Source: Salinivirgaceae bacterium (GTDB taxonomy: Bacteria; Bacteroidota; Bacteroidia; Bacteroidales; SZUA-534). From it: a stretch of DNA of 43,484 nt. Made by a program: the position numbers and the translations under genes. The stretch is from NCBI GenBank assembly GCA_017557785.1, contig JAFYYA010000069.1, positions 68,288 through 111,771 of the forward strand, written 5' to 3'. A model generated the notes under the pieces. That model had not been told where the DNA came from, searched no databases, and saw nothing but the letters and a program-made list of their open reading frames with translations. Shown piece by piece: positions 21,317-40,491 of the stretch (the stretch's first letter is position 1; every line of letters begins with the position of its first letter).

Positions 21317-24016
21317 GTGTCAAGGATAAGTAAAACAGTCACCTTTTGGAGTATGGCAGCCCTTGCCGTGCTGTTGGTTTGCTGTTCGCCTGCCAAAAAC
21401 ACACCCATACGCCGCGGCTACCACAACCTGACGTCGAAATACAATGTCTATTTCAATGGAAACGAAGCGTTTAAGTCGGGTATGGAGAACATCTACTCGG
21501 CTCACCAGGAGAATTTTTCTCTGATTCTGCCGATGTTTGTCTATAGCGACAAAGAGGCCGCGCTCACGTCATATGCCGACATGAACCGAGTGATTGAAAA
21601 AAGCGAGAAGTGCATGCGCAAGCACTCAATCACAGCCAAGCCGAAGACCAAAAAAGGCAAAAAACTGTCGGATAAGAAAAAGGATTTCCAGAACAAAAAC
21701 GAATATGTGAAATGGATTGACAACGCCGAAATACTTGAAGGCAAGGCAAAAACCATCAAGCAGGACTATTTTGCGGCCATTGAGCAATTCACTCACATTG
21801 TGCACCAGTACGACGATCAGGACATCAAAACCGAAGCCTACATCTGGCTGGCACGCAACTACACCGAAATGGAGAAGTATCAGCAGGCCGACGATTTCAT
21901 CAGCACCATAACGGGCGACATGAGCAAGGTGTCGCGGAAAATGGAGGCACCGCTGGCACAGACTCAGGCCGACATTCTGCTGCGACAGGGACGCCACGCC
22001 GATGCCATTCCGTATGTGGAGACGGCAGTGAAAAAAATCCGCCGCGACCGCCGCGAAAAAATCCGACTGATGTACATTCTGGCGCAGCTCTATCAGTTCA
22101 ATGAAGACAACCGCAAGGCCAGCTATTGGTATCAGAAAGTAATCGACAAAAATCCTGACTACGAATATGTTTTCAACGCCCGAATCAACAAGGCGAGCCT
22201 TTACAGCAGCGAATCGGGCGGAAGTGCGGCACTGCAGCGCGAGCTCACCAAAATGCTGAAAGACGACAAGAACACCGACTATCTGGACCAGATTTACTAC
22301 GCACTGGGCAACATCGCCTACAACGAAATGCGCGACGACGACGCTCTGTGGTACTTCAAACAGTCGATTGCCGCAAGCACCACCAACGACAACCAGAAGA
22401 GCATCTCCTATCTGGCTGTAGCCGACATATACTTCGACAAGCCCGACTACCGCAACGCGCAGCTCTACTACGACAGCGCAATGGTGAATCTGCCGCACGA
22501 ATATCCTGATTATCAGAGCATCCGCCGCAAGGCCGAGAACCTGACCGACCTGGTAAACTGCATTGAGACCATTCACACGCAGGACAGCCTGCAGAAATTG
22601 GCCAAAATGAGCGAAGCCGAGCGCAACAAGGCCATCGACAGGAAAATTCAGGAAGTGATAAATCAGGAGCAAGCCGAAAAGAACCGCGAGAACGCAGCCA
22701 AGAACGAACTGGCGCAGGCACAGCAGATGAGCCGCCAGAACACTCAGACGGGCGGCAAATGGTATTTCTACAACCAATCGTCGCTGAGCCTTGGACAGGA
22801 CGAGTTCCGCAAGAAATGGGGCAACCGCAAGCTGGAAGACAACTGGCGCCGCAGCAACAAGACCGTCACCGAATGGGACGAGGTTGGAAGCACGGCCGAG
22901 GCTGAGGTGTCAGAAGATGCAAAAAAGGGGCTCGACAACAAGAGCCGCGAATATTACCTGGTCGACATTCCGCTCACCGATTCGGCTTATGCGGTATCGG
23001 AACAGAAAATGGAGCAGGCCTATTTCAATCTGGGCGTGGTCTACAAAGACAAATTTGCCGACTATCCGCTTGCTATTGATGCTTTTAACGACTACATGAA
23101 GAAGTATCCGAAGTCGGAGAAAGAAGTTTCGGCAATGTTCAACCTTTACAAAACTTATCTTTTGCAGAAGGACTACGCCAATGCCGACATCTATAAGAAG
23201 CGGATTATCAGTGAGTATCCTGACACCGACTACGCCAAAATTCTGAACGACCCCGATTACTACAAAGAACTCGAGAAGGCCGAAAATGAGCTCAACTTCA
23301 TGTATCAGGTGACTTACCGCTACTTCCTGAACGACGAGTGCGACAATGTGAACTCAACGTTCCGTTATGTCGACTCGGCATATCCCGACAGTCGACTGAT
23401 GCCGAAATTCGCGCTGCTCAATACGTTATGCATGGGCAAATCAACCGATTCGCTGACATTCGAGAGTATGCTGAAAAGCTATATCGAAAAGTATCCGAAA
23501 GGCGAGGAAGCCGGCTACGCACGCGACGTGATTGCCGCCCTGAACCGCAAGCCGCACGAGGTGGAGGAGAAAACCGAAGAGCAGATTCTGGCCGAAGAGC
23601 AGCTGGCCGCACAAGCCGCCTACGACTCGCTCGACGTGTCGCTCTATAATTACGATGCCGACGAGCTACACTACTACATTGTTGTTATCGACAAGCACAA
23701 ACTTGAGGAGAGCCGCGTCCGCTTCGGGCTCATCGACTTCAACGATGAGTATTTCGACTTTATGAATTTCGATGTTTCGACAGACAAACTGACGGAAGAT
23801 TACGGCATAGTGAGGGTTGACAAATTCAAGAACGCCCGCATGGCGCAGAACTACATTGAGTCGGTGATTGTTGCCGGCGAAGTGTTCGATGGCGTCATCA
23901 GCGACAGCTACAAGCAATACATCATATCGAAATCGAACTACGAGAAATTCCTTGATGACGGCAATCTCGACCGTTACAACAAGTTCTTCGACATGAACTA
24001 CACGTTGAATCCATAA
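21317..24016 (+). CDS. porW: T9SS-associated TPR lipoprotein PorW/SprE
   Basis: The protein is 899 residues. The GTG start gives a signal peptide with hydrophobic core AALAVLLVCC and candidate lipid-bearing Cys22/Cys23. PorW/SprE is required for type IX secretion in Porphyromonas and for gliding in Flavobacterium and interacts with the secretion machinery at the outer membrane. Supporting features are the early YHNLTSKYNVYFNGNEAFKSG segment shared by the family, repeated TPR-like helices (about 140-400 and 555-720; YFAAIEQFTHIVHQY, AYFNLGVVYKDKFADYPLAIDAFNDYM), a long charged Gln/Glu-rich helix (about 425-475) and a C-terminal region (about 790-895) with HYYIVVIDKHKLE. It is followed after 11 nt by an acid phosphatase gene. 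A generic TPR lipoprotein is the alternative. Confidence 0.85.
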   Translation: MSRISKTVTFWSMAALAVLLVCCSPAKNTPIRRGYHNLTSKYNVYFNGNEAFKSGMENIYSAHQENFSLILPMFVYSDKEAALTSYADMNRVIEKSEKCMRKHSITAKPKTKKGKKLSDKKKDFQNKNEYVKWIDNAEILEGKAKTIKQDYFAAIEQFTHIVHQYDDQDIKTEAYIWLARNYTEMEKYQQADDFISTITGDMSKVSRKMEAPLAQTQADILLRQGRHADAIPYVETAVKKIRRDRREKIRLMYILAQLYQFNEDNRKASYWYQKVIDKNPDYEYVFNARINKASLYSSESGGSAALQRELTKMLKDDKNTDYLDQIYYALGNIAYNEMRDDDALWYFKQSIAASTTNDNQKSISYLAVADIYFDKPDYRNAQLYYDSAMVNLPHEYPDYQSIRRKAENLTDLVNCIETIHTQDSLQKLAKMSEAERNKAIDRKIQEVINQEQAEKNRENAAKNELAQAQQMSRQNTQTGGKWYFYNQSSLSLGQDEFRKKWGNRKLEDNWRRSNKTVTEWDEVGSTAEAEVSEDAKKGLDNKSREYYLVDIPLTDSAYAVSEQKMEQAYFNLGVVYKDKFADYPLAIDAFNDYMKKYPKSEKEVSAMFNLYKTYLLQKDYANADIYKKRIISEYPDTDYAKILNDPDYYKELEKAENELNFMYQVTYRYFLNDECDNVNSTFRYVDSAYPDSRLMPKFALLNTLCMGKSTDSLTFESMLKSYIEKYPKGEEAGYARDVIAALNRKPHEVEEKTEEQILAEEQLAAQAAYDSLDVSLYNYDADELHYYIVVIDKHKLEESRVRFGLIDFNDEYFDFMNFDVSTDKLTEDYGIVRVDKFKNARMAQNYIESVIVAGEVFDGVISDSYKQYIISKSNYEKFLDDGNLDRYNKFFDMNYTLNP

Positions 24017-24027
24017 ACCACTTGAAG

Positions 24028-24831
24028 ATGAAACGCTTATCAGTCATTTTGGGATTAGTGGCGGGCATTGTCGCCACATCGTGCACACCAAAAACCAACA
24101 GCCAGACCGACGGCGAGCCTATGACTCACCTGCTGCTGGCCACCGCTTGGTTTCAGCAGTCGGCCGAGATGCGCGCCTGCTATTATCAGTCGTACATGCT
24201 GGCCAAAATGGCACTGAAGGAGAATCTGCAGAACTACAAGGGCGCGAAGCCCGCAGCCGTGGTGCTCGACATCGACGAGACGGTGCTCGACAACAGCCCC
24301 TTTGAAGCCAAACTGATGGCCGACCGCCAAAACTACTCTGACAGTGCGTGGATGGCATGGTCGGCACGCGAAGAAGCACTGGCGCTGCCCGGAGCTGCGG
24401 AGTTCATTGCATACGCGCGTGAACTGGGCGTTGATGTTTTCTTCATCTCGAACCGCGTTCTTGATGAGCGTGAACGGACTCTTAAAAACCTTGCCACAGC
24501 AGGAATGGCCGTCGACTCGGCTCACCTTCTGCTCTACGACCTGAGCAAAGGAACATCGTGCAAAGACGAACGCCGTGATTTGGTATCAGAAACACACGAG
24601 ATAATTCTTTTCATTGGCGACAACCTTGGCGACTACACTTCGCTCTTCGACCGCCGCGACAGTTCGCTTGCCCTGCATCTGGCCGACTCACTGCACGAAG
24701 ATTTCGGTCGCAAGTTCATCATCCTGCCCAACCCCATGTACGGCGAGTGGGAGAACGCCATCTATGGCCACAACCACAAGCTGCCGATGACCGAAAAGAA
24801 CCGGACGATGCTGGAGCTGTTGAGGAAATAA
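24028..24831 (+). CDS. 5'-nucleotidase/acid phosphatase lipoprotein, e(P4) family
   Basis: The protein is 267 residues from ATG 24028 (a TTG two codons earlier was not used). The signal has a lipobox VATSC with Cys19. It is a class C HAD phosphatase: motif I DIDET (81-85) with nucleophile D81 and D83, then DNSPFEAKL, motif II in FFISNR, and the late acidic motif FIGDNLGDYTSLFD. The family (Haemophilus e(P4)) dephosphorylates nucleotides and other phosphate esters at the outer membrane, feeding nucleoside salvage. It is 11 nt after porW/sprE and so probably in the same transcript. It ends before a 337-nt spacer that holds a leader-like element. Confidence 0.93.
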   Translation: MKRLSVILGLVAGIVATSCTPKTNSQTDGEPMTHLLLATAWFQQSAEMRACYYQSYMLAKMALKENLQNYKGAKPAAVVLDIDETVLDNSPFEAKLMADRQNYSDSAWMAWSAREEALALPGAAEFIAYARELGVDVFFISNRVLDERERTLKNLATAGMAVDSAHLLLYDLSKGTSCKDERRDLVSETHEIILFIGDNLGDYTSLFDRRDSSLALHLADSLHEDFGRKFIILPNPMYGEWENAIYGHNHKLPMTEKNRTMLELLRK

Positions 24832-24926
24832 AACCACCTGACAACCGTATTTTTACCCGGCGCAACCGAATTTAAAACCGTTGCCGCCGAATTTGAATTT
24901 GTGCACACCGTGCCCGAAAGCGACCT

Positions 24927-24934
24927 TATATTTG
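24927..24934 (+). promoter_or_regulatory. -7 box of the leader before the fibre gene
   Basis: TATATTTG matches TAnnTTTG. Transcription should start near 24940, just before a 10-codon open frame. No -33 TTTG at 19 nt; one occurs at 25 nt (24898-24901). Confidence 0.55.
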
Positions 24935-24950
24935 CATCGTTCAATCAACC

Positions 24951-24983
24951 ATGAAAAATGTGGAGAATCTGGAAATACCTTGA
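24951..24983 (+). CDS. Possible 10-codon leader peptide MKNVENLEIP
   Basis: An ATG lies 17 nt after the -7 box and opens a 10-codon frame that ends with TGA at 24981-24983. The stop falls in the left arm of the following hairpin, an arrangement seen in attenuators. No amino-acid bias is evident. This is a positional inference; translation is not shown. Confidence 0.3.
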   Translation: MKNVENLEIP

Positions 24984-25013
24984 TTTCACCCCCGAAACTC
25001 AAGGTATTTTTTT
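24973..25013 (+). terminator. Hairpin terminator/attenuator upstream of the fibre gene
   Basis: AAATACCTTGA (24973-24983) pairs with TCAAGGTATTT (24999-25009), an 11-bp perfect stem with a 15-nt loop, followed by further T residues to 25013. With the -7 box at 24927 it would delimit a transcript of about 75 nt, either a small RNA or a prematurely ended leader of the gene at 25169. The remaining spacer (25014-25168) is A/T-rich and holds no gene that I can support. Confidence 0.7.
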
Positions 25014-25168
25014 GTGCCCGAAAACAAACCTTGTCAATAAAATACATCCAAACCGTTTATTTATTATTTTTACACACTTTTGAGTGCGTCAGCAACCGCT
25101 CGCAAAAGTACAAACAACTGAAAACCAAATAGAATTGATTAAAAAAGTACATTAAACGCTTTATTATC

Positions 25169-28100
25169 ATGAAACATTTTTTCACCCCAATCGTGGCAAT
25201 TGCTCTTACGCTGAGCACAATGACAGCCGTGGCACAAGCCGACGGATTCTCGTACCAAGCAGTGGTTCGTGACGCCAGCGGCGAACTTGTTGACAACTCG
25301 AAAGTAGGTCTACGCCTGACGCTGACCGACAAAGATGGCAACCAGATGTATCAGGAGACACACACACCAACGACCAACAATTACGGTGTGCTGACTGTTA
25401 CAGTGGGAACCGGTACGCACGCCGAAGGCCAGAGCCTTCAGAATGTGAACTGGGCTGGCGGCGACGTGTGGATGCGCGTTGAGATTGACCCTCGCGGCGG
25501 CACCAAGTACACCAATATGGGCTCAACCAAATTGCAAGCCGTGCCATACGCCTATTTTGCAATCAACGGCGGAAATGGCGAGAAGGGCGATCCCGGCGAA
25601 AAAGGTGACACGGGCGATAAAGGCGATGCCTTTACTTACGAAGATTTCACTCCGGAGCAACTTGCCGCACTGAAAGGTGAAAAGGGTGACAAAGGTGATA
25701 TGGGCACAAGCCTTACCAACAGAGGCAGCTGGTCGGCGAATGAAACCTACAATTCGGGCGACTACGTGTTCCACCGCAGCTCTAGCAACCAACTTGTCAA
25801 CTCAATGTGGATTGCACAAAACGATGACATAAACAGTTCGACCGAACCATATCTGGACAGCGAAAACTGGATTGAGCTCCAGGCAGAAAAGGGCGAAAAG
25901 GGTGACAAGGGTGACAACGGCGCACCCGGTTTGCCAGGCGAGCAAGGTCCAGAGGGACCGGCAGGACCGGCAGGACCAGCAGGTCCGCAAGGTGAACCCG
26001 GCGCACCCGGCACTGGCTTGACAAATAAAGGTTTATGGGCAGCTGGAACAGCATACGAATCGGGCAACTATGTGTTTTCCCGCAGCACCGACAACGCATC
26101 GCTCAATTCGATGTGGATTGCAAAAAATGACATAACCAGTGCCAATTCGACAACCGAACCTTATCTGGATACCGAAAACTGGGTTGAATTTCAGGCTCCA
26201 AAAGGAGAGCAAGGCTTGAAAGGCGACACGGGCGAGAAAGGTGACGCTTTCACCTATTCAGATTTCACTCCTGAACAACTCGCCGCTTTGAAAGGCGAAA
26301 AGGGCGACCAAGGTGCAAAAGGCGATAAAGGAGATGCCTTTACTTACGAAGATTTCACTCAGGAACAACTCGACGCTCTAAAAGGCGAAAAGGGTGACAC
26401 TGGTGCAAAAGGCGATCCGGGTACTCCTGGTGCAAAAGGTGACCAGGGAACACCGGGCGAAAAAGGTGACAAAGGCGACAAGGGCGCAAAGGGTGATAAA
26501 GGTGATAAGGGCGACAAAGGCGATGCCTTCACTTACGCCGATTTCACTCAAGCTCAACTCGACGCTCTGAAAGGCGAAAAGGGCGACCAGGGTATTCAGG
26601 GTCCCAAGGGTGACAAAGGCGACACCGGCACCGGCCTTACCAACCGTGGCAGCTGGACAAGAGGAACAAGCTACACCACAGGTGATTATGTATTCTCGCG
26701 CAGTACCAACGATGCGAACGTAAACTCAATGTGGATTGCCAAAAACACCATAACCAGTGCCAATTCGACAATCGAGCCTTATCTCGACCTTTCAAACTGG
26801 GTTGAATTCCAGGCTCCCAAAGGCGACAAGGGTGATCCCGGCCGCGACGGCATGCAAGTTGCCGGACAACGCGGACAGACGCTTGTCCACAATGGCACAA
26901 CATGGGTTGCAACTGACGAAATATCGCTCAAGAAACTCGATGTGAAAGGTACAACCACAAACGACGACGCCCTGTTCGAAGTTAAGGACAAAGATGGCAA
27001 CGTAGTGTTTGCCGTTTATCCCAATGGCGTTCATGTTTATATTGATCCGGATGCTGATGCCAGCAAGATGAAACGCAGCGGTTTCCTTGTTACTGGACGT
27101 GAAGCAACAAAGGATGGCATCAACAGCGATTATTTTGCCGTAAATAGCTATGGTACACAAGTATATGTGGGCGAAGGCGACGACAAGATGAAACGCAGCG
27201 GATTCCTTGTAACCGGACGCGAAGCAACCAAATCTGGCGTTAACAGCAACTATTTTGCAGTTAACGACGATGGTACACAAGTGTATATTGGCGAAGGCGA
27301 CGATAAGATGAAACGCAGCGGTTTCCTTGTAACTGGACGCGAAGCAACCAAGTCGGGTATCATCAGCGACTATCTCTCAGTGAACGACGATGGTACAAAA
27401 GTGTATGTGGGCGATGGCACCAGCAAGATGAAACGCAGCGGTTTCCTTGTTACTGGACGCGAAGCCACAAAGGCAGGCGTTAACAGCAACTATTTTGCAG
27501 TGAACGACGATGGCACGAAAGTCTATATCGACGACCAGCTTGAAAACGATGCCAAGATGAAGCGCAGCGGTTTCCTTGTTACTGGACGTGAAGCAACCAA
27601 AGACGGCAGCTCAACAAACTATATGAAAGTGGCCACCGACGGTACACAGGTGAAATTCGACACCGATGCCAGCAAGATGAAACGCAGCGGTTTCCTTGTT
27701 ACTGGACGCGAAGCAACCAAAGGCGGTGTTGACTCCGACGTTTTCGAAGTAACCCCCGACAGCACCCGCGTTTATGTTAACGGTGGCGGCAGCAAGAGCG
27801 GTTTCGGCGTTGAAGGTAAAAGCGGTGGCGACAAGAGCGGTTTTGCCGTTACCGAGAAGGGTGATGATGGCAGCGCAGGCTATATGAACGTAACATCAGA
27901 AAACTTCTTTGCCGGCTACAATGCAGGAAAGAAAACCACAAGCAGCACCGGCACTAATAACACGTTTGTGGGTAACAACGCCGGTGTGGCCAACACTACA
28001 GGTTCAAGCAACGTATTTGTAGGTAAAGAAGCCGGTTACACCAACACCAAAAGCCAAAACAACGTGTTTATTGGTAATCAGGCTGGATATAAAACCAACG

Positions 28101-30610
28101 GAACCTCAACAACAACAGTTTACAATGCCCTTGCTGGAGGAAATGAGACGGTTTATTACGGCTCAAACAACGTATTCTTAGGTAACCGCGCCGGTTACAG
28201 CAACGTTACGGGTATTAACAACGTGTTCCTTGGAAACAATGCAGGTGTGAAAAACACAGCCAGCAACAACGTATTCTTGGGTTACAACAGTGGAGCGGCC
28301 AACACAACTGGTAGTGACAACGTATTCCTTGGAAACTATGCGGGCAGGAATAACACCTCTGCCAGCCAGAACGTGTTTGTGGGCTACTATGCAGGCGTAT
28401 TGAATACAACAGGTGCCAACAACGTATTTATTGGTAACAATGCCGGCCGCAACAACAAAAGCGGTGCAAGCAACGTGTTACTTGGCTACTATGCGGGTTA
28501 CAATAATACCGCATCGTACAACACCATGCTTGGCTATCAGGCTGGTAAGGCAAACACAAGCGGTATTAACAACGTATTCCTGGGCTACAATGCCGGTTTG
28601 TCGAACACCGAAGGTAAGAACAACGTGTTTTTAGGAACAAGCGCCGGTAACACCAATACCAAAGGCGAGAGCAACGTATTTATTGGCAACTTGGCGGGTT
28701 ACACCAACTCAACCGGCAACTACAACGTATTTCTTGGCCACTATGCAGGAAACGCCAACACAGCATCGTACAACACATTCCTTGGCTTCCAGGCAGGTAA
28801 AGCCAACACAAGCGGCGCCAATAACGTATTCCTGGGTTACAATGCCGGTCTGGCAAACTCAAGCGGCTCAAACAACGTCTTCTTGGGAACAAGCGCCGGT
28901 AACACCAACACCACAGGCGCCAGCAACGTGTTTATTGGCAATCAAGCAGGTTACTCCAACTCAACCGGTAACTACAATGTGTTCCTTGGCTATCAGGCAG
29001 GTAACAAGAGTACCGCTTCAAACAACACCTTTCTTGGTTATCAGGCAGGATTGAACACTACATCCGGAGCCAGCAACGTCTTCATGGGAACTAATGCTGG
29101 TAACACCAACACCACAGGCGCCAGCAACGTGTTTATTGGCAACAATGCAGGTTACACCAACTCAACTGGTAACTATAACGTGTTCCTTGGCTACTATGCG
29201 GGTAACAAAAACACTGCATCGTACAACACCTTCCTTGGTTACCAGGCAGGTGTGAGCAACACAAGCGGTGCCAGCAACGTGTTTCTAGGCTACAATGCAG
29301 GTATGAGCAACACAAGCGGTGCCAGCAACGTGTTCATCGGCAACCAGGCAGGTTACACCAACTCAACTGGCAAATACAACGTGTTCCTTGGCTACTATGC
29401 AGGTAACAAAAGCACAGCATCGTACAACACCTTCCTTGGTTACCAGGCAGGTAAGGCCAACACAAGCGGTGCCAGCAACGTGTTCCTGGGCTATAATGCA
29501 GGTGCGGCCAACACATCAGGCGGCAGCAACGTGTTCCTTGGCAACGCAGCTGGTAACGCCAACACAGAGGGAGAAAGAAACATATTTATAGGAACAGAAG
29601 CCGGCAAATCATTTATAAAGGGTTCGCAGAACATTCTAATAGGCACACGCACGGGACTATCGATAAAAAGCGATGATGCGAGAGTTTGGAATACTGTTAT
29701 AATAGGATCTGACGCTGCGAAGAATGTGGAAAACAATATTGGTTATAGTACAATTATTGGAAGTTTTGCCGCTGAATATGCGACAGGCGTTGATAATTGT
29801 GTGTTTATTGGACACCAAGCGGGGCAGTATAATGAATTTGAAACTGGAGCAAGCGGTTGCGGTTATGGCAATGTATATTTAGGTTCCCAGGCTGGAGCCC
29901 TTTGGAAACGAGGCAGATACAATGTGTTTGTTGGCCAAGATGCCGGAGGCGCCAATGTTGGCAGCGGAGAAACGACGGTATTTGCAAATGGAACAGGCAA
30001 TATCTTTCTTGGGGACCATGCAGGATATAGATTAACTACGGGTTCTTATAATGTTTTTATTGGTTATCAAGCAGGTTATTATCAAACCAATACTAGCAAC
30101 AAGCTGTTCATTTCCAATAGCAGTACAAGCTCTCCGTTGATTTGGGGCGATTTTAGCACATCTTCTGTTATAATTAACGGCAGTCTCACTTACACATCAG
30201 ACGAGCGCTTCAAGGAGAACATCAAACCACTTGAAGGTTCGTTGCAAAAGGTGCTTAATCTACGTGGTGTAAGCTATACTTGGAAAACCAAAGCCGAGAT
30301 GGCCGAGATACGCGGTGTCACACCAGATTCGGACGATTTCAACACCCGCATCCAAGAAGGCACACAGCTTGGCGTCATAGCTCAAGAGGTTGAGAAGATT
30401 GTTCCTGAAGTAGTCATCACTGAAGAAGACGGCTTCAAATCTGTTGACTACATCAAACTTACCCCCGTGCTCATCGAGGCCGTAAAAGAGCTGAAAGCTG
30501 AGAAAGATACTCTTCAAGCCACTGTTGAGAGCCAGCAGAGCAAGATAGACAACCAGCAACAGCAGATAGACGAACTGAAACGCCTGATTGAAGAATTGAT
30601 GAACAAATAA
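25169..30610 (+). CDS. Giant collagen-like / beta-roll fibre protein with S74 chaperone domain
   Basis: The protein is 1813 residues. A signal peptide (about 1-23, ending AVAQ) and a Bacteroidota N-terminal beta domain (25-130, GFSYQAVVRDASGEL) come first. A collagen-like GXY shaft follows (about 137-560), carrying four GDAFTYxDFTxxQL linkers and three Trp-rich inserts (about 179-238, 282-341, 487-546). Next are six repeats with KMKRSGFLVTGREATK (residues 633, 673, 713, 753, 796, 836), then about 41 units of the VFLGxxAGxxNTxGxxN type (about 913-1650), resembling trimeric beta-roll heads such as YadA. The C-terminus is a peptidase S74 intramolecular chaperone with S1677 and K1682 (SDERFK) as the likely Ser-Lys dyad, followed by a coiled coil (about 1765-1813). 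I infer a trimeric, self-processing surface adhesin. No T9SS C-terminal sorting domain is seen. Tail-fibre-like proteins of this sort recur in Bacteroidota; this assembly is unusually elaborate. Confidence 0.9.
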   Translation: MKHFFTPIVAIALTLSTMTAVAQADGFSYQAVVRDASGELVDNSKVGLRLTLTDKDGNQMYQETHTPTTNNYGVLTVTVGTGTHAEGQSLQNVNWAGGDVWMRVEIDPRGGTKYTNMGSTKLQAVPYAYFAINGGNGEKGDPGEKGDTGDKGDAFTYEDFTPEQLAALKGEKGDKGDMGTSLTNRGSWSANETYNSGDYVFHRSSSNQLVNSMWIAQNDDINSSTEPYLDSENWIELQAEKGEKGDKGDNGAPGLPGEQGPEGPAGPAGPAGPQGEPGAPGTGLTNKGLWAAGTAYESGNYVFSRSTDNASLNSMWIAKNDITSANSTTEPYLDTENWVEFQAPKGEQGLKGDTGEKGDAFTYSDFTPEQLAALKGEKGDQGAKGDKGDAFTYEDFTQEQLDALKGEKGDTGAKGDPGTPGAKGDQGTPGEKGDKGDKGAKGDKGDKGDKGDAFTYADFTQAQLDALKGEKGDQGIQGPKGDKGDTGTGLTNRGSWTRGTSYTTGDYVFSRSTNDANVNSMWIAKNTITSANSTIEPYLDLSNWVEFQAPKGDKGDPGRDGMQVAGQRGQTLVHNGTTWVATDEISLKKLDVKGTTTNDDALFEVKDKDGNVVFAVYPNGVHVYIDPDADASKMKRSGFLVTGREATKDGINSDYFAVNSYGTQVYVGEGDDKMKRSGFLVTGREATKSGVNSNYFAVNDDGTQVYIGEGDDKMKRSGFLVTGREATKSGIISDYLSVNDDGTKVYVGDGTSKMKRSGFLVTGREATKAGVNSNYFAVNDDGTKVYIDDQLENDAKMKRSGFLVTGREATKDGSSTNYMKVATDGTQVKFDTDASKMKRSGFLVTGREATKGGVDSDVFEVTPDSTRVYVNGGGSKSGFGVEGKSGGDKSGFAVTEKGDDGSAGYMNVTSENFFAGYNAGKKTTSSTGTNNTFVGNNAGVANTTGSSNVFVGKEAGYTNTKSQNNVFIGNQAGYKTNGTSTTTVYNALAGGNETVYYGSNNVFLGNRAGYSNVTGINNVFLGNNAGVKNTASNNVFLGYNSGAANTTGSDNVFLGNYAGRNNTSASQNVFVGYYAGVLNTTGANNVFIGNNAGRNNKSGASNVLLGYYAGYNNTASYNTMLGYQAGKANTSGINNVFLGYNAGLSNTEGKNNVFLGTSAGNTNTKGESNVFIGNLAGYTNSTGNYNVFLGHYAGNANTASYNTFLGFQAGKANTSGANNVFLGYNAGLANSSGSNNVFLGTSAGNTNTTGASNVFIGNQAGYSNSTGNYNVFLGYQAGNKSTASNNTFLGYQAGLNTTSGASNVFMGTNAGNTNTTGASNVFIGNNAGYTNSTGNYNVFLGYYAGNKNTASYNTFLGYQAGVSNTSGASNVFLGYNAGMSNTSGASNVFIGNQAGYTNSTGKYNVFLGYYAGNKSTASYNTFLGYQAGKANTSGASNVFLGYNAGAANTSGGSNVFLGNAAGNANTEGERNIFIGTEAGKSFIKGSQNILIGTRTGLSIKSDDARVWNTVIIGSDAAKNVENNIGYSTIIGSFAAEYATGVDNCVFIGHQAGQYNEFETGASGCGYGNVYLGSQAGALWKRGRYNVFVGQDAGGANVGSGETTVFANGTGNIFLGDHAGYRLTTGSYNVFIGYQAGYYQTNTSNKLFISNSSTSSPLIWGDFSTSSVIINGSLTYTSDERFKENIKPLEGSLQKVLNLRGVSYTWKTKAEMAEIRGVTPDSDDFNTRIQEGTQLGVIAQEVEKIVPEVVITEEDGFKSVDYIKLTPVLIEAVKELKAEKDTLQATVESQQSKIDNQQQQIDELKRLIEELMNK
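27065..27719 (+). repeat. Six-copy repeat encoding KMKRSGFLVTGREATK in the fibre gene
   Basis: Copies begin at 27065, 27185, 27305, 27425, 27554 and 27674. The first four are spaced by exactly 120 bp (40 codons); the fifth is 129 bp after the fourth and the sixth 120 bp after the fifth. The 16-residue core is invariant while the linkers (xGxxSxYFAVNxDGTxVYxG) vary. Confidence 0.95.
28523..29581 (+). repeat. Higher-order 252/201-bp tandem repeats in the beta-roll region
   Basis: Units starting with the codons for TxLGxQAG recur at 28523, 28775, 29027, 29228 and 29429. The spacings are 252, 252, 201 and 201 bp. The long version has five 16-17-codon units and the short version four, the difference being one 51-bp unit. 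The last copy is partial (three units). Confidence 0.93.
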
Positions 30611-30638: not shown

Positions 30639-30990
30639 GTAGAGACGGTGCATGCACCGTCTCTACGTGTTTTATGGGTGTGTATTTTGCACGTTTGTAG
30701 AGACGCACCATGGCACGTCTCTACGTTAGAAAACGTTGTTTTTAATTGTCCGAAGGACAAAATCTGCATAACCGCGGGTGAGCGTAGCGTAACCCGTGGT
30801 AATATGCCACATCCCGAAAACCAATCCGTAGGATTGAATCTTGCCAAGATTCACTCTTTCAGAGTGTGTCTCATTACACGGCATGTTCCGGCGGCTGCGC
30901 TTCGCTTGCGGCCGGTTATGCAAATCACGTCTTCCAGACGTTTTATGTCCACATGTTTGTAGAGACGCGCCATGGCACGTCTCTACGTTA
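30639..30990. repeat. Palindrome-rich intergenic element between fibre gene and porE
   Basis: Three 28-bp palindromes of the form GTAGAGACG-N10-CGTCTCTAC lie at 30639-30666 (perfect), 30697-30724 and 30959-30986. The last two sit in 36-bp direct repeats (30693-30728, 30955-30990) that differ at one base. Between them are short hairpins with 6-8-bp arms and 3-nt loops at 30746-30760, 30822-30836, 30835-30853, 30852-30866 and 30927-30941. A larger hairpin spans 30771-30800, and a 10-bp long-range stem joins TGCATAACCG (30765-30774) to CGGTTATGCA (30913-30922). No coding frame is supported. The first palindrome, 29 nt after the fibre stop codon, may also end its transcript. Confidence 0.85.
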
Positions 30991-31084
30991 TCGCAAAAAA
31001 AAATGAATAGATGAACAAAAATCCTTATTTTCGCAAATTGTTTATTAAAAAGTTGACATTCCGCAATTTGATTCAATATTGAAA

Positions 31085-33067
31085 ATGAAGAGAATTATTG
31101 CAATAACCATCGCCGCACTCGCAGTGCTTCCGGCATTTGCGCAGCGGGGCATCACCGCCAAAGCCGACAAGGCTTTTGAATTGGGAAAATATTTCGATGC
31201 CATCGACGAGTACAAATACGCCTACGCAAAGGCCAAAGACAAAAACAAGAAGAACGATATAATGTTCATGGTGGCCGAGAGCTACCGCATGGTTCAGAAC
31301 AGCCGCCAGGCTGAGATCTGGTACCGCAAGGTCATCAAAAAAGGTTACGAAAATCCGCTTGCAACACTCTACATGGCCGACGCCATGCGCGCTCAAGGCC
31401 AGTATGAGGATGCCATGAAGGAATATCAGAACTACACAAAACTCAATCCGTCGGACGACCGCGGACCGGCAGGCGTGGAGTCGTGCGCATCGGCCATTGA
31501 GTGGATGGGGCAGCCCACCCGCTACAAGATTGAGAACATGCACTATTTCAACTCGAAATACAGCGATTTCGGCATCGCCTACGCCAAAGACGACTACAGC
31601 ATGGTGATTTTCTCGTCGTCGCGTGAGGGCTGCACGGGCGGCAAAATCAGCGGCGTAACGGGCGAGTACTACTGCGACTTGTTCCGCTCACGTGTCGACC
31701 GCAAGGGAAAATGGTCGGAACCGGTGCCACTCGAGGAGAACATCAATACGGCACTTGAAGAAGGCATGCCTTCAACCAATAAAAAATGCAACACCTTGTA
31801 TTTCACCAGTTTTCGCGAGGATAAGAACAAAAATATGGTCTGCAAGATTTTCTGCTCGGTGAAAGAGAACGCCGAATGGGCCGACCCAACAGAACTTAAT
31901 CTGGCACCCGACACAGTTGCAGTTGGTCATCCGGCCATCAGCGACGACGAGTTGACACTCATCTTCGTTTCGGAGATGGCTGGCGGCTACGGTGGCAAAG
32001 ACCTTTGGAAAACAACCCGTGCCAACAAATCGTCGGAATGGGGCAAGCCAGTGAATATGGGACCTGCCATCAACACTGCAGGCGACGAGATGTTCCCCTA
32101 CATCCACCCCGAAGGCACGCTTTACTTCTCGTCGAACGGCCACCCGGGAATGGGCGGACTCGACATCTTCAAAGCCAGCGAAGGCTCATCAGGTTGGAAA
32201 GTTGAGAACATGAAATACCCCATCAACAGCTCATCGGACGATTTCGGCATCTGCTTCGAGTCGGAGATGGAGCGCGGCTATTTCTGCTCGAACCGCCCCG
32301 GCGGCAAGGGTTCTGACGACATCTACCAGTTCTCTCTTCCGCCGATTGAGTTCACACTTACAGGCATCGTGCGCAACGGCAAAACTGACGCCATCATTGC
32401 TGGTGCGGAGGTTAACCTTATCGGTAGCGATGGTACAAACATCACCGCCAAAACCGAGACCGACGGCTCTTACAACTTCAATCTGTCGCCAAATGCCGAC
32501 TACCGTATTGTTGTGAAGCGCGGCGGCTTCCTTAATTCGAAAGACAAAACCACTACCAAAGGCCTGACCGACAGCGAGCAGCTGAAAGTGAACATCGACC
32601 TTCAGCCTGACGACCGCCGTATGGACCTTGACGGAATCGAATACGAGTTCAACAGTGCCAAGCTGAAACCGTCGTCGATTGCCGGACTTGAGGTGCTTGT
32701 GGGCATCCTGAACGACAACTCGAACATCACCATCGAGATTGGTTCGCACGCCGACTATCGCGGAAGCGACGAGGCCAACAAGAAACTGTCGGATGCCCGT
32801 GCTAAATCGGTTGTTGACTTCCTGACCACTTACGGTATCGACCGCGAGCGACTCGATTCGCACGGCTACGGCGAGGAGATGCCGAAAGAAGTGGACAAGA
32901 AGATGGCTCAGAAATATCCGTTCCTGAAAGAAGGCGACATCTTGACCGAAGCGTTCATCAAGCGCTTGCCTGACGACCAGCAAGAGATTTGCAACCAGAT
33001 CAACCGCCGTACCGACTTTGCCGTTACCGGCCGCGATTACGTTCCAAAAGTTCGCAAACGTCGATAG
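31085..33067 (+). CDS. porE: T9SS component PorE-like protein (TPR, beta-propeller, CRD, OmpA-C)
   Basis: The protein is 660 residues from ATG 31085 (an in-frame TTG lies two codons earlier). A signal peptide (about 1-20, ending PAFAQ) lacks a lipobox Cys. Domain order: TPR helices (about 25-140), PD40/WD40-like beta-propeller (about 150-410; repeated YFSSNGHPGMGGLDIFKA and YFCSNRPGGKGSDDIYQF), carboxypeptidase-regulatory-like domain (about 415-505; GAEVNLIGSDG...DGSYNFNLSPNADYRI) and OmpA C-terminal peptidoglycan-binding domain (about 510-650; GSHADYRGSDEANKKLSDARAKSVVDFL). This is the order of Porphyromonas PorE (PG1058), which is proposed to tie the T9SS machinery to peptidoglycan. Generic OmpA/PD40 proteins are the alternative. 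A weak -7-like box TATTTTCG lies at 31026-31033. Confidence 0.88.
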   Translation: MKRIIAITIAALAVLPAFAQRGITAKADKAFELGKYFDAIDEYKYAYAKAKDKNKKNDIMFMVAESYRMVQNSRQAEIWYRKVIKKGYENPLATLYMADAMRAQGQYEDAMKEYQNYTKLNPSDDRGPAGVESCASAIEWMGQPTRYKIENMHYFNSKYSDFGIAYAKDDYSMVIFSSSREGCTGGKISGVTGEYYCDLFRSRVDRKGKWSEPVPLEENINTALEEGMPSTNKKCNTLYFTSFREDKNKNMVCKIFCSVKENAEWADPTELNLAPDTVAVGHPAISDDELTLIFVSEMAGGYGGKDLWKTTRANKSSEWGKPVNMGPAINTAGDEMFPYIHPEGTLYFSSNGHPGMGGLDIFKASEGSSGWKVENMKYPINSSSDDFGICFESEMERGYFCSNRPGGKGSDDIYQFSLPPIEFTLTGIVRNGKTDAIIAGAEVNLIGSDGTNITAKTETDGSYNFNLSPNADYRIVVKRGGFLNSKDKTTTKGLTDSEQLKVNIDLQPDDRRMDLDGIEYEFNSAKLKPSSIAGLEVLVGILNDNSNITIEIGSHADYRGSDEANKKLSDARAKSVVDFLTTYGIDRERLDSHGYGEEMPKEVDKKMAQKYPFLKEGDILTEAFIKRLPDDQQEICNQINRRTDFAVTGRDYVPKVRKRR

Positions 33068-36678: not shown

Positions 36679-39600
36679 TTAGTTGTTGACTGCATTATTC
36701 AGTAGATACAGATTAGCCTTCAAACCGCGGTTTTCAATGTTAGCCTTGCTGGCTTCGTATTTGATTTTTTCATCAACTTCTACAAAGTTGATGCACGAGC
36801 CATCATCCAAAGCCCCGGGGAAATTGCTGACAATAAGCGTTGCGGCGTTTCCTACTTTTTCTATGGCCGGTTTCAGTTTGAATATTTCACCCGTCGGCAC
36901 ATAAAGAATTTGGCAGTTTGGTATATCGCCAACGTTGTTGACGCCAACCACCTTAATAGGTTTGCCGTTCACTGTTTTGCCGTTAGTTATTGCTTTGAGT
37001 TGACTCAGAACCTCGGTCTTGCCCAAAACGCACACCACAAAATCGCCTTTGGTTGCTGGCCACTCAACATGTTTGGTGAAATTATAAATGAGCATAGACA
37101 AAAACTTTGCGTTTTGCTCAACCGGATTTAACGAACTGTCGTTTTGGCTTTGCTCAACCGAATTTAATGAACCGCTGTTTTGGCTGGCTTGTGGCATAAG
37201 TTTGCCGTTCATTGCTTCTTCCACTGTCTTTTCAAGTTCATTGCTGGCAATATCGCGCTTTAGAATGGTGCCATCAAGACCGAAGAGTATTATTTCGCCG
37301 TTGCCAAATCCATACGTTCTGTTGGCTTGGTGACTTACATCGTAATACACCTTGTGGCTGACATCAAAACCTTTAAGAGATTCTTTGAAATAGTCGGGTC
37401 CTGAAATATAGTTGCACACAATAGAAATTGCGTCGATTGGTTTTCCTTTGAACTTTTCAAGCAGAGCATCGATTGCTTTTCCCGTTTCTTTACTTTTTTC
37501 ATCGGGCGGATAGCAGAAATTCACGAGCACATACCGGCCTTTGCCCACAATGTCTGACAGGCTCGGGCGGTTGTTTGGGTTGCTCATATTCTGCAAATCC
37601 AAATCGGCGAACATCTTGCCTGGTGCGGTGTTGGTGCGAGCTTCCTCACGGCGCTTTTGCGACTCTGCAATACTCTTTTTCCATTCATCGTCTCGTTGTT
37701 TCAGAAGTTTCACCATCGGGTTTTGCAAAGTTTTTTCGGGCAGAATGCTGTAATCGGCATTCCAAGGTCCTATCAGATATTGCATTACCAAACCAAGATT
37801 GTTGGCGTTCTTTTTCACATATTCATTAATGGCGGCATTGGCCTTATCGCCTTGTTTGTCAAATATTTCGTTGAATTTTTTCTCGGCTTTCTCCCATTCG
37901 GTGTAGAATTTTGAGCCGGTCAGTTGGTACGAAGGCATTTCCATCCTAAATCCCGGTCCTTCGTCTCGCTTAATTCCGGTTGAAGTCAAAGTGAACTGCG
38001 CATTCTCGCCGGGGACAAACGGAATGCTTATTTGATAATTATATACCGGTACACCATCGTTCAAAGTTTGCAGAACCCATACCATGCACGGATTGTCGAG
38101 ATAGGTATTGAATGTGGCCATGCCATTGCTATCAAGTTCAACATCGTCCGACAGACAATAATTTTTTGTATTTTCATCGGCACTCATAAGTTCAAGTCTG
38201 AAACCCGTAACCTCGTTTGTGAGTTCGGTTTTGAAAGTTATGCTGAAGTTCGGCTTGGGGTTGGGGGTCAGGTTTTCTCTGATATTCTCAACAATCACGG
38301 TTATATCCTGGCCATTCACATCAGCCGATTGATTAGCGCCATTTGCATTAATGAATGACACTTTCTTGCTGACTTTCTGCACCAAATCGAAATGGGCGAC
38401 ACCTTTGGGCAGCGGCTCGAAGGCGTAGCGGGCGCCGCGGATATAGTCAATGTAACGGTTGCCGCTGCTCTCGTTGTGCAGCATTTTGTACAGATTACCC
38501 GCCGAATCGCGCAGGCAGACATCGGAATTCAAATCGCCACGCTCCCAATGCGCCGCCGAAAGGGTGACAACAGTCCGTTTCTCGCAGAAATCGACATGTT
38601 TAACCTTTTGGTTGTTCCAATTGCCGTATTTCACGTTCTCCCACGTTTTGTACAAGCCATCGGGCTTGGCCGCATTCTCGTTCAAATGGTGGTTTTTGCA
38701 GTAGGTGTCGGCCAAGCGGCGAATCTTCGACACATAATTGGTGTATTGGCCCGAATAGTGTCCGTTGTGAACTGTCAGTTCGAAGGTGACGCCCGGCGCT
38801 GCAAAGGTCTCAATCCAAGCCGAGCAAATCTCGCCGCCGGGGAATATGCAGCGTATGCGGCACACGGTCAGGTCGTTAAGTTCAACCTCGTAGTGGAACT
38901 TCTTATCCACCACCGGCACGCAGGCCACGGGTGTTTCAATAATATCGAATTTCTCATCGGCAAAATAAATCAGATAACACGAGTCGGTAATTTCCGGGTC
39001 AACGGCGCCCTCAATCACAAATTTGCCGGGGCCGAGCGTTTGAAAAACTGTGCGTTCGGTGGTTGTCTGTGTTGTGGCGGCAGTCCTTATTTCCTTGATA
39101 AGTGCGTCAATGCGGGCATTAACTTCGTTTGCTGCATTTGTTTCGTCTCCTCCTTCTTCAACCATCATTTGCGCATCCATAGCAACAAACATATCTTCGT
39201 AGTCGGTAAGGGTTTTCAATCTCTCCATTATGTTTTTTTGGTAGGCGAAAAGCGTATCGTTGATAAATGTGAATATCGATTCAAGTTCCTCGCGATCGGA
39301 ATTGTTCCATTTTTCCGAAACTTCCAACAATTCAGCCTGCAATTTTGGAAAATCCTCATTATGAATCTTTTTGAGCGCAAGTTTGTCGGGGGTGTCGGGG
39401 TTTCTGTCAATATAAACCCAATTTTTAGTGAGCAAATGTGAATAGTTCACCATCGATTTACATTCCAACAGTAGCTTCTGCGTAACATAAGTTTCGTCGG
39501 GTGACAGTGCCGCAGGATTCGGTTCCGCTCTCTTTTCAGTGAAGGTGAACGCGCAGAACATTACGCCAATCCACGCCAAGGTGCCGATTTTGGCCACGCG

Positions 39601-40491
39601 GCCGAGCGTGCCGACAGCCGATTTTTTCATCTCGATAAACCGCTGGCGGATAAACGAGTGGTTGAAACCGTTCACCACAGGGCTCGACACGTTCATCACC
39701 ATCTCCAAAAGCGTTGTCTGATAAGCGTTTATGTTGACATTGGACTCAATCACGTCGTGGTCGGCCTGGAACTCGTGCACGTTGCGCAGCTCATTGCGGC
39801 AAAGCCATACAAACGGGTTGAACCAAAACAGTCTGGTTATCAACTCCATAAACCACACGTCGGCATAGTGGCGGTGGCGGATATGCGCTTTTTCGTGGCG
39901 GATAATCATACTCTTTCCCGGCTCGTGAAGACTCGCGGGCAGAAAAATGGTTTTGGCGAACGAGAAAGGCGTGTTGACGCTTGGCGAGCTAATCAGGCTG
40001 TAGCCCTCGGCGGTGTTTTCAACATCCATTTTCGATTTGATAGCCAATACTTTGCCGATATGGTAAGCCGCCAACAGCAACAGCAGCAGCGATATGGCCG
40101 GAACGGTCCACTTGAGCATCGCCATCCAATCGATAACTATAGGTTGCTTTACCTGAACGGGTTCGGCAACTGGTGCGGTGGCTGGCATAGCGGCTGGCAC
40201 TGCAGCTGGCGCGGCGGTGGTCACTTGCGCGGGCGCAATGTCGGGCGCATAGCCGGTCTCAACAGGCGCGGTTGGCGCGGTGTAGTGGCCGAAGTCAATC
40301 TGCTCAATGGCAAACTCTGTTCCCGTTGGGTAAACTTCGAACGTCAGAACGCTGATTATCAGGCTGACAATCGGCAGGGCAAGCAGATACGCGCGACTGA
40401 CGGCATAGCTGGCCTTTCCGCGCAGAACAATCCGGTAGAACACGAACAAAAGCGCAGCCGAAGCAATGAATTTCAAAAAGATAAGTAGCAT
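36679..40491 (-). CDS. M56 (BlaR1-like) metalloprotease fused to DUF4369-, thioredoxin- and YfiR-like domains
   Basis: The protein is 1270 residues. The N-terminal M56 part has TM helices at about 4-22, 34-50, 125-148 and 306-325, zinc motif HEKAH (199-203) and E240/D244 in HEFQAD, as in BlaR1/MecR1 antirepressors. A Pro/Ala-rich linker lies at about 71-118. The extracytoplasmic part has a DUF4369-like domain (about 485-590), further beta-rich segments (about 630-900), a thioredoxin-like domain (about 975-1110) where the usual CxxC position reads FCYPPDEKS (no redox pair), and a C-terminal YfiR/DUF4154-like domain (about 1130-1265; YNFTKHVEWP, FVVCVLGKTEVLSQL, CQILYVP). It lies 110 nt downstream of a BlaI-type repressor gene. 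I infer that it senses an envelope signal and cleaves or triggers loss of the repressor. No penicillin-binding sensor domain is seen. Confidence 0.85.
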   Translation of the reverse strand: MLLIFLKFIASAALLFVFYRIVLRGKASYAVSRAYLLALPIVSLIISVLTFEVYPTGTEFAIEQIDFGHYTAPTAPVETGYAPDIAPAQVTTAAPAAVPAAMPATAPVAEPVQVKQPIVIDWMAMLKWTVPAISLLLLLLAAYHIGKVLAIKSKMDVENTAEGYSLISSPSVNTPFSFAKTIFLPASLHEPGKSMIIRHEKAHIRHRHYADVWFMELITRLFWFNPFVWLCRNELRNVHEFQADHDVIESNVNINAYQTTLLEMVMNVSSPVVNGFNHSFIRQRFIEMKKSAVGTLGRVAKIGTLAWIGVMFCAFTFTEKRAEPNPAALSPDETYVTQKLLLECKSMVNYSHLLTKNWVYIDRNPDTPDKLALKKIHNEDFPKLQAELLEVSEKWNNSDREELESIFTFINDTLFAYQKNIMERLKTLTDYEDMFVAMDAQMMVEEGGDETNAANEVNARIDALIKEIRTAATTQTTTERTVFQTLGPGKFVIEGAVDPEITDSCYLIYFADEKFDIIETPVACVPVVDKKFHYEVELNDLTVCRIRCIFPGGEICSAWIETFAAPGVTFELTVHNGHYSGQYTNYVSKIRRLADTYCKNHHLNENAAKPDGLYKTWENVKYGNWNNQKVKHVDFCEKRTVVTLSAAHWERGDLNSDVCLRDSAGNLYKMLHNESSGNRYIDYIRGARYAFEPLPKGVAHFDLVQKVSKKVSFINANGANQSADVNGQDITVIVENIRENLTPNPKPNFSITFKTELTNEVTGFRLELMSADENTKNYCLSDDVELDSNGMATFNTYLDNPCMVWVLQTLNDGVPVYNYQISIPFVPGENAQFTLTSTGIKRDEGPGFRMEMPSYQLTGSKFYTEWEKAEKKFNEIFDKQGDKANAAINEYVKKNANNLGLVMQYLIGPWNADYSILPEKTLQNPMVKLLKQRDDEWKKSIAESQKRREEARTNTAPGKMFADLDLQNMSNPNNRPSLSDIVGKGRYVLVNFCYPPDEKSKETGKAIDALLEKFKGKPIDAISIVCNYISGPDYFKESLKGFDVSHKVYYDVSHQANRTYGFGNGEIILFGLDGTILKRDIASNELEKTVEEAMNGKLMPQASQNSGSLNSVEQSQNDSSLNPVEQNAKFLSMLIYNFTKHVEWPATKGDFVVCVLGKTEVLSQLKAITNGKTVNGKPIKVVGVNNVGDIPNCQILYVPTGEIFKLKPAIEKVGNAATLIVSNFPGALDDGSCINFVEVDEKIKYEASKANIENRGLKANLYLLNNAVNN
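37114..37185 (-). repeat. 36-bp in-frame duplication in the M56 gene
   Basis: Two tandem copies of a 36-bp unit (37114-37149, 37150-37185) encode similar 12-residue segments (SLNxVEQ/QNxxS pattern). They form the linker just before the YfiR-like domain. Confidence 0.9.

Follow-up and report, generated by a model that had tools for sequence, protein, structure and literature searches.

The closest described counterparts of the gene considered here are the mosaic adhesive trimers (MATs), fibres which predatory Bdellovibrio uses for prey recognition (PMC10769870). According to the paper describing them, 21 proteins have in common a domain rich in beta structure, about 130 aa long, that follows the signal peptide; 13 MATs end in an S74 domain with an SDxxxK motif and eight lack S74, and the proteins of Bdellovibrio bacteriovorus are typically about 1,000 aa long (PMC10769870). 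For Bd3182 the S74 domain was shown to cleave itself, and the authors of that paper expect the N-terminal domain to be located on the cell surface, bound to a partner yet to be identified (PMC10769870). Here we describe a gene of a Salinivirgaceae bacterium, found in a 43,484-nucleotide stretch of DNA (the window), which probably encodes an exported, cell-encoded, self-processing, modular and trimeric adhesin of the fibre type, working in the manner of a Bdellovibrio MAT. The likeness to MATs such as Bd3182 lies in the signal peptide, a beta-rich N-terminal domain (N-domain) with detectable homology and the long fibre; in both systems some members end in S74 with SDxxxK while others have other ends, and there are many paralogues per genome. 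The window protein differs in its Bacteroidota host, its 1813 aa and a score under the MAT_N cut-off, and it has a collagen shaft, Trp-rich inserts and an SGFLVTG stalk, the word "collagen" being absent from the main text of the MAT paper (PMC10769870). No report of such fibres in Bacteroidota was noticed among the literature matches listed, a scope outside which most subscription papers and bioRxiv lie.

The gene is a single intact and unbroken ORF, with exactly the ends and the 1813 residues that the original prediction had given it (Table 1). By eye, the signal peptide would be cut at AVA/QADG, about residue 22, and three relatives have a start similar to that of the window protein. This peptide had been predicted from the sequence, as had a GXY shaft with three inserts and six exact stalk repeats, and all of these were recovered: a pattern search found eight GXY runs of at least four triplets, the shaft is interrupted by Trp-rich inserts starting at about residues 179, 281 and 487, and KMKRSGFLVTGREATK occurs six times unchanged, at residues 633, 673, 713, 753, 796 and 836. 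Four DAFTYxDFTxxQLxALKG connectors, seen by eye, also lie in the shaft and were absent from the original prediction. For the roll, about 41 VFLGxxAG units had been claimed, which is close to the 39 units of a relaxed pattern (starts from residue 932 to 1629, mostly 16-17 residues apart); the strict form occurs 14 times. The stalk and roll repeats are beyond chance, because Tandem Repeats Finder scores their arrays at 302-841 and because the six stalk copies have in common a constant stretch of 48 bp, 88-96% alike, which differs only at synonymous positions. A structural model of stalk and roll was too poor for a fold search (mean pLDDT 43.9), with the last roll units reaching about 70-80.

Table 1. 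Features of the fibre gene and its neighbours, in window coordinates.
Feature	Positions	Strand	Basis
Mosaic S74 fibre gene, 1813 aa	25169..30610	+	ORF, translation, Pfam
Signal peptide, residues 1-22	25169..25234	+	by eye: hydrophobic core, AVA/Q
N-domain, residues 23-133, predicted beta-sandwich	25235..25567	+	model, NF053851 match
Collagen-like shaft, residues 134-563	25568..26857	+	Pfam, pattern search
Trp-rich insert 1, CBM5/12-like below cut-off	25703..25894	+	
Trp-rich insert 2	26009..26206	+	
Trp-rich insert 3	26627..26824	+	
SGFLVTG stalk, made up of six repeats (about 40 residues) that all start with KMKRSGFLVTGREATK	27065..27790	+	
NVFxGxxAG roll, about 39 units mostly of 16-17 residues, phage tail fibre-like	27962..30103	+	
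S74 domain (intramolecular chaperone and protease), residues 1677-1749, with the dyad S1677/K1682	30197..30415	+	
C-terminal stretch, coiled-coil-like, residues 1750-1813	30416..30607	+	by eye
porW/sprE, T9SS lipoprotein	21317..24016	+	NF052312, 662.2 bits, cut-off 250
e(P4)-type acid phosphatase lipoprotein	24022..24831	+	TIGR01533, 248.8 bits, cut-off 216
porE, T9SS OmpA-family protein	31079..33067	+	NF052230, 677.6 bits, cut-off 600

Across genes, the stalk repeats are near-uniform inside each gene and differ from gene to gene (window 27065-27790; L104 7627-8310; L095 5181-5914), with KMKRSGFLVTGREATK in the window, KVRRSGFLITGRDATK and close forms in L104, and K[AT]RRSGF-VTGRTA[TS]K forms in L095. 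This is the pattern expected from duplication or homogenisation within genes.

The profile searches that had been proposed as a check came out in part as foreseen, with S74 and Collagen over their Pfam cut-offs and the YadA head not listed at E<=1. Collagen (PF01391) scores 51.7 bits against a cut-off of 27.2. Legionella Lcl and the streptococcal SclA/SclB are alike in having a collagen-like repeat stretch, with partial NCBIfam matches, however, the window protein lies far under these family cut-offs (58 of 500, 57.6 of 400 and 51.1 of 325 bits). The roll had also been named YadA-type, a name we dropped since the window protein has no Pfam YadA_head match. Neither this head nor the C-terminal anchor is among the Pfam families listed for it at E<=1, a limit at which HMMER filters already discard weak matches, and without an anchor match a trimeric autotransporter was likewise rejected. 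Trimeric autotransporters with YadA heads are nevertheless comparable at the level of the family, with Pfam YadA heads present in three sister proteins (scores of 108, 118 and 280 bits), but differ from the window protein itself, which has no listed match to either module.

Weak matches to CBM5/12 (PF02839) were obtained at E<=1 for five of seven Trp-rich inserts (the three of the window and two each from two sister proteins), the best at E 0.015. Insert 1 reaches 15.8 bits and the sister protein L120 20.9 bits, both below the cut-off of 26.2, and an insert profile compared with solved structures found as its best match a chitin oligosaccharide deacetylase, below threshold at E 0.057. Chitin or cellulose as the ligand of these inserts would be a guess, albeit one with some support from such matches.

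The link to MATs is carried by the N-domain. The NCBIfam model NF053851 (Bdello_MAT_N) matches the domain in the window with an E-value of 6.5e-9 over model positions 15-79 of 162, at 35.8 bits, below the curated cut-off of 60. The same model matches all 17 of the 17 aligned N-domain rows (best E 1.1e-11) and finds 14 places in the window's own genome, identical to the 14 found by the N-domain profile, with a best score there of 43.4 bits and none over the cut-off; in 14 control genomes it matches nothing. On these matches, we call the N-domain a remote homologue of the N-terminal domain of Bdellovibrio MATs. Because the curated cut-off is not reached, we do not class the window protein as a MAT member and speak only of a protein that works like a MAT. 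A structural model built from four sequences gives a beta-sandwich with block pLDDT values of 75-87 over residues 21-100; against the PDB it had no match at E<=1e-3, the best being a phage XM1 neck protein (9.1e-3), and the sequence profile of the domain reached only E 0.16 there.

By eye, this conserved domain stands behind a signal peptide in S74 and non-S74 members alike, which suggests a common site for holding the fibre. It is therefore unlikely, in our estimation, that the protein is a secreted and non-anchored matrix or coat protein, that is, a released fibre with collagen and roll as an extracellular scaffold, although such a role would agree with the lack of any membrane anchor or lipobox visible by eye in the chain.

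The distal parts, in contrast to the N-domain and stalk, resemble phage fibres. Of 50,697 phage records, 600 match the whole protein, but no record matches 80% of its length in a single place; in the best 30 of the 600 the match lies inside residues 943-1787, five of them also matching from the shaft on, and some records among the matches listed cover roll and S74 together. The fibres or spikes of Roseobacter phage CRP-7 and Prochlorococcus phage P-SSM2, for example, share 29-33% identity with roll and S74 from residue 943/944 to 1786. Among the best 25 of 38 PHROGs families, the first is a virion structural family (head and packaging) at 250 bits, followed at 235 bits by a tail spike family over the end of the roll and S74; tail fibre families match roll and S74 too, as well as the collagen part. 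Alone, neither the N-domain nor the stalk has a match in the 50,697 phage records at E<=0.01, so that in these two parts the protein differs from phage S74 fibres. A cell-encoded chimera is thus supported, in which shaft, roll and S74 are phage-fibre-like and N-domain and stalk have no phage match.

This mixed make-up bears on whether the gene could instead code for the tail fibre of a prophage, or derive from a phage, and work for a virion rather than for the cell. The phage-fibre-like roll and S74, with their 600 matching records and PHROGs tail families, would fit a virion gene; the signal peptide and the two parts without phage match would not. The surroundings also speak against it, as the neighbours of the fibre gene are housekeeping and T9SS genes, with an aldo/keto reductase and a transketolase (616.8 bits, under its 682 cut-off) in addition to porW, e(P4) and porE, and the window's own genome holds eight S74 genes on eight contigs. 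We regard a virion gene as extremely improbable and rejected it on the neighbours and on the lack of phage matches for N-domain and stalk.

The C-terminal domain is a Peptidase_S74 (PF13884; 60.6 bits against a Pfam cut-off of 22), as had been predicted. The motif SDERFK lies at residues 1677-1682, with an intact Ser-Lys dyad S1677/K1682, and 137 residues run from S1677 to the end, in agreement with the positions and fragment length originally proposed. SDxxxK was found in 34 of 38 S74 sequences (the window and L001-L037, L005 being the window's own gene), 32 by a motif script and two by eye (L023 and L036), the remaining four (L022, L030, L034 and L037) having given nothing readable. From the dyad, a cut between T1676 and S1677 is predicted, and the S74 end is probably a phage-type folding helper that cuts itself off. 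In a tree of 20 S74 domains, in which 12 of 17 inner branches are weak, the window's domain groups with a roll-bearing paralogue from another locus of its own genome (support 100/99), apart from the genes that occupy the same locus in genomes G006 and G007. Repeat type is clustered on this tree more strongly than chance would give, with six changes, a number equally low in six of 200 shuffles; for the roll class taken by itself no such clustering was seen, 187 of 500 shuffles being equally low.

The fibre gene belongs to a paralogue family. The window is the end of its contig in an assembly of 3.0 Mb, 94% complete and 7% contaminated, and ten genus mates have five to 15 S74 genes each; at least one S74 gene was found in 39 of the 60 genomes surveyed, own included. 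Of the 14 places with an N-domain in the own genome, five have an S74 domain within the ORF, another five are complete proteins that lack S74, and four are cut by a contig end. Conversely, five of the eight own S74 ORFs have an N-domain and the other three run off the contig end on their 5' side. The complete proteins without S74 have other ends, two with a SGFLVTGREATK stalk and one with InlB-type B repeats, and in front of S74 the sister proteins carry the window-type roll, YadA heads, NYGV-type repeats or mixtures of these. Because the 14 N-domain places bear S74 as well as other ends, this is one chassis with several kinds of distal part. That chassis, together with the remote kinship to Bdellovibrio MATs, is what we consider the standout feature. 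The original prediction had seen it in the number of trimeric modules in one chain, a point now weakened, as long S74 ORFs, of about 800-1800 codons, are common across the genus.

Matching stretches of the own-genome paralogues are about 64-81% alike, and with no near-identical exchange among them recent gene conversion was rejected. Eight own-genome contigs begin or end within N-domain or S74 genes (L068, L069, L070, L071, L120, L121, L123 and L128), and therefore the true number and full length of the fibres are not readable from the assembly.

The setting of the gene was compared with that of its relatives. PorE proteins at least 77% identical were found at 11 loci, all from MAGs, nine of them Salinivirgaceae, mostly from ruminant stomach, and two uncultured Bacteroidetes. 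Three of 12 genus porE loci, those of the window, G006 and G007, have the order porW/sprE, e(P4), fibre, porE. In G005, porW, e(P4) and porE follow each other with 446 bp between the last two and no fibre gene there, a fibre gene lying further downstream; blocks of 40 and 60 bp in this gap, 85% alike, match both outer flanks of the occupied site. At the other eight loci porW is absent from the stretch covered on the upstream side of porE, which was only 6-7 kb long in two of them, and G008 has porW about 7.6 kb downstream of porE. Because of these differing arrangements, the neighbourhood of the fibre gene is not a conserved functional unit. From the gene's place behind porW/sprE and ahead of porE at three loci (the window, G006 and G007), the protein might be thought to serve type IX secretion or gliding as a structural or accessory component of their machinery. 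With that place found in only three of the 12 loci, no fibre gene between e(P4) and porE in G005 and the other S74 genes on other contigs, we think this role very improbable and keep to a fibre adhesin.

The distal modules at this one locus are themselves different: the same-locus genes of G007 (by Pfam) and G006 (by pattern only) have YadA-type distal parts. Since the N-domain of the window is 76% identical both to that of the same-locus G007 gene and to that of an own-genome paralogue elsewhere, replacement of the whole gene would be as likely a history as a swap of modules.

Two intergenic elements were seen beside the gene. The gap that separates the fibre gene from porE contains a palindromic repeat, GTAGAGACGNNNCATGNCACGTCTCTAC, three times (30639-30666, 30697-30724 and 30959-30986), and at up to three mismatches it is found nowhere else in the window; the repeats fold as hairpins. 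Of the 85 copies in six genomes, 19 are no more than 1 kb away from an S74 domain on its 3' side, where about 0.2 would be expected from an even spread, a comparison not corrected for intergenic bias, in which the 19 copies are near 10 of 51 listed S74 genes (41 having none) and clusters at the same gene are not independent. A RAYT (Y1_Tnp) as mover of these palindromes was rejected, with no Y1_Tnp found in the own genome. In the gap between e(P4) and the fibre gene (24865-25020), a TATATTTG box at about 24927, which we take to be of the Bacteroidota -7 type, precedes a hairpin that has a run of T. The 151 bp around box and hairpin are 89% alike in G006 and G007 (fold z -3.1), and this leader matches nothing in Rfam over the gathering score, with three weak minus-strand matches, the best at E 0.026; it may code for a small RNA or simply act as a terminator. 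Further along the window (36679-40491, minus strand), a 1270-aa protein joins a BlaR1/M56 peptidase part (59.8 bits) to a YfiR/HmsC-like C-terminus (100.4 bits), a fusion that is, to our knowledge, unusual.

A possible way for such a fibre to leave the cell is the type IX secretion system (T9SS), whose substrates are targeted by a C-terminal domain, the CTD (PMC10994853). No type A or type B CTD model matched the window protein, either over the whole chain at E<=0.01 or over its final 172 residues at E<=5, and without a CTD match a classical T9SS substrate was rejected. Help from the T9SS without a classical CTD is possible. In a phylum sample of 296 genomes (227 of 228 SprA matches over the cut-off), the N-domain occurs in 64 of 228 SprA-positive and 0 of 68 SprA-negative genomes (Fisher 6e-9), some of the 64 being counted on matches that are partial and weak, with E-values as poor as 5e-4. 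An order sample of 199 genomes has it in 124 of 189 SprA-positive and 0 of 10 SprA-negative genomes (4e-5). Both associations ignore relatedness, with G000, G289 and G297 present in both samples; 17 of the 20 SprA-negative genomes listed (of 68) in the phylum sample are from one family, and the 10 of the order sample are from five families. Of the 296 phylum-sample genomes, 88 have S74; it is accompanied by SprA in 87 of these and by the N-domain in 46.

These counts would fit export through SprA without a type A/B CTD, guided by the S74/coiled-coil end, the N-domain or a partner. However, the CTD is the signal by which T9SS substrates are targeted (PMC10994853), the SprA-negative genomes come from few lineages, part of the positive count is made up of weak partial matches, and 164 of the 228 SprA-positive genomes are without the N-domain. 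Bdellovibrio has MATs but is not known to have a T9SS, and this speaks against the N-domain as a T9SS signal as such. Overall, we would put forward SprA-dependent export only tentatively, as a doubtful option.

Returning to the fibre adhesin that we favour, the signal peptide would direct the chain to the periplasm. The N-domain, common to S74 and non-S74 members, would be cell-proximal and keep the fibre on the cell, and the fibre itself would consist of the collagen-like shaft with its carbohydrate-binding-like inserts, the SGFLVTG stalk and the long phage-fibre-type roll. At the other end, the S74 domain would gather three chains and aid folding of the roll, then use its Ser-Lys dyad for a cut at T1676/S1677, so that the 137-residue piece would come off and the tip be exposed. 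A far broader scheme can be drawn up, a phylum-wide Bacteroidota family of MAT-like proteins in which common ancestry with the Bdellovibrio MAT N-domain provides a universal cell-side socket, the T9SS translocon aids export without a CTD, phage-type distal modules are swapped between loci and the palindromic repeats behind the genes are recombination points; taken as a whole, we judge it distinctly unlikely.

If the narrower reading of an adhesin working like a MAT is true, the fibre plan of a predatory bacterium would extend to the Bacteroidota, with a link at the level of sequence in the cell-side domain. What holds such fibres on the cell would then become testable, a point at which the MAT paper leaves the surface element to be identified (PMC10769870). 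The same would apply to the exit of S74-ended fibres from a Bacteroidota cell to which they offer no CTD-type ticket.
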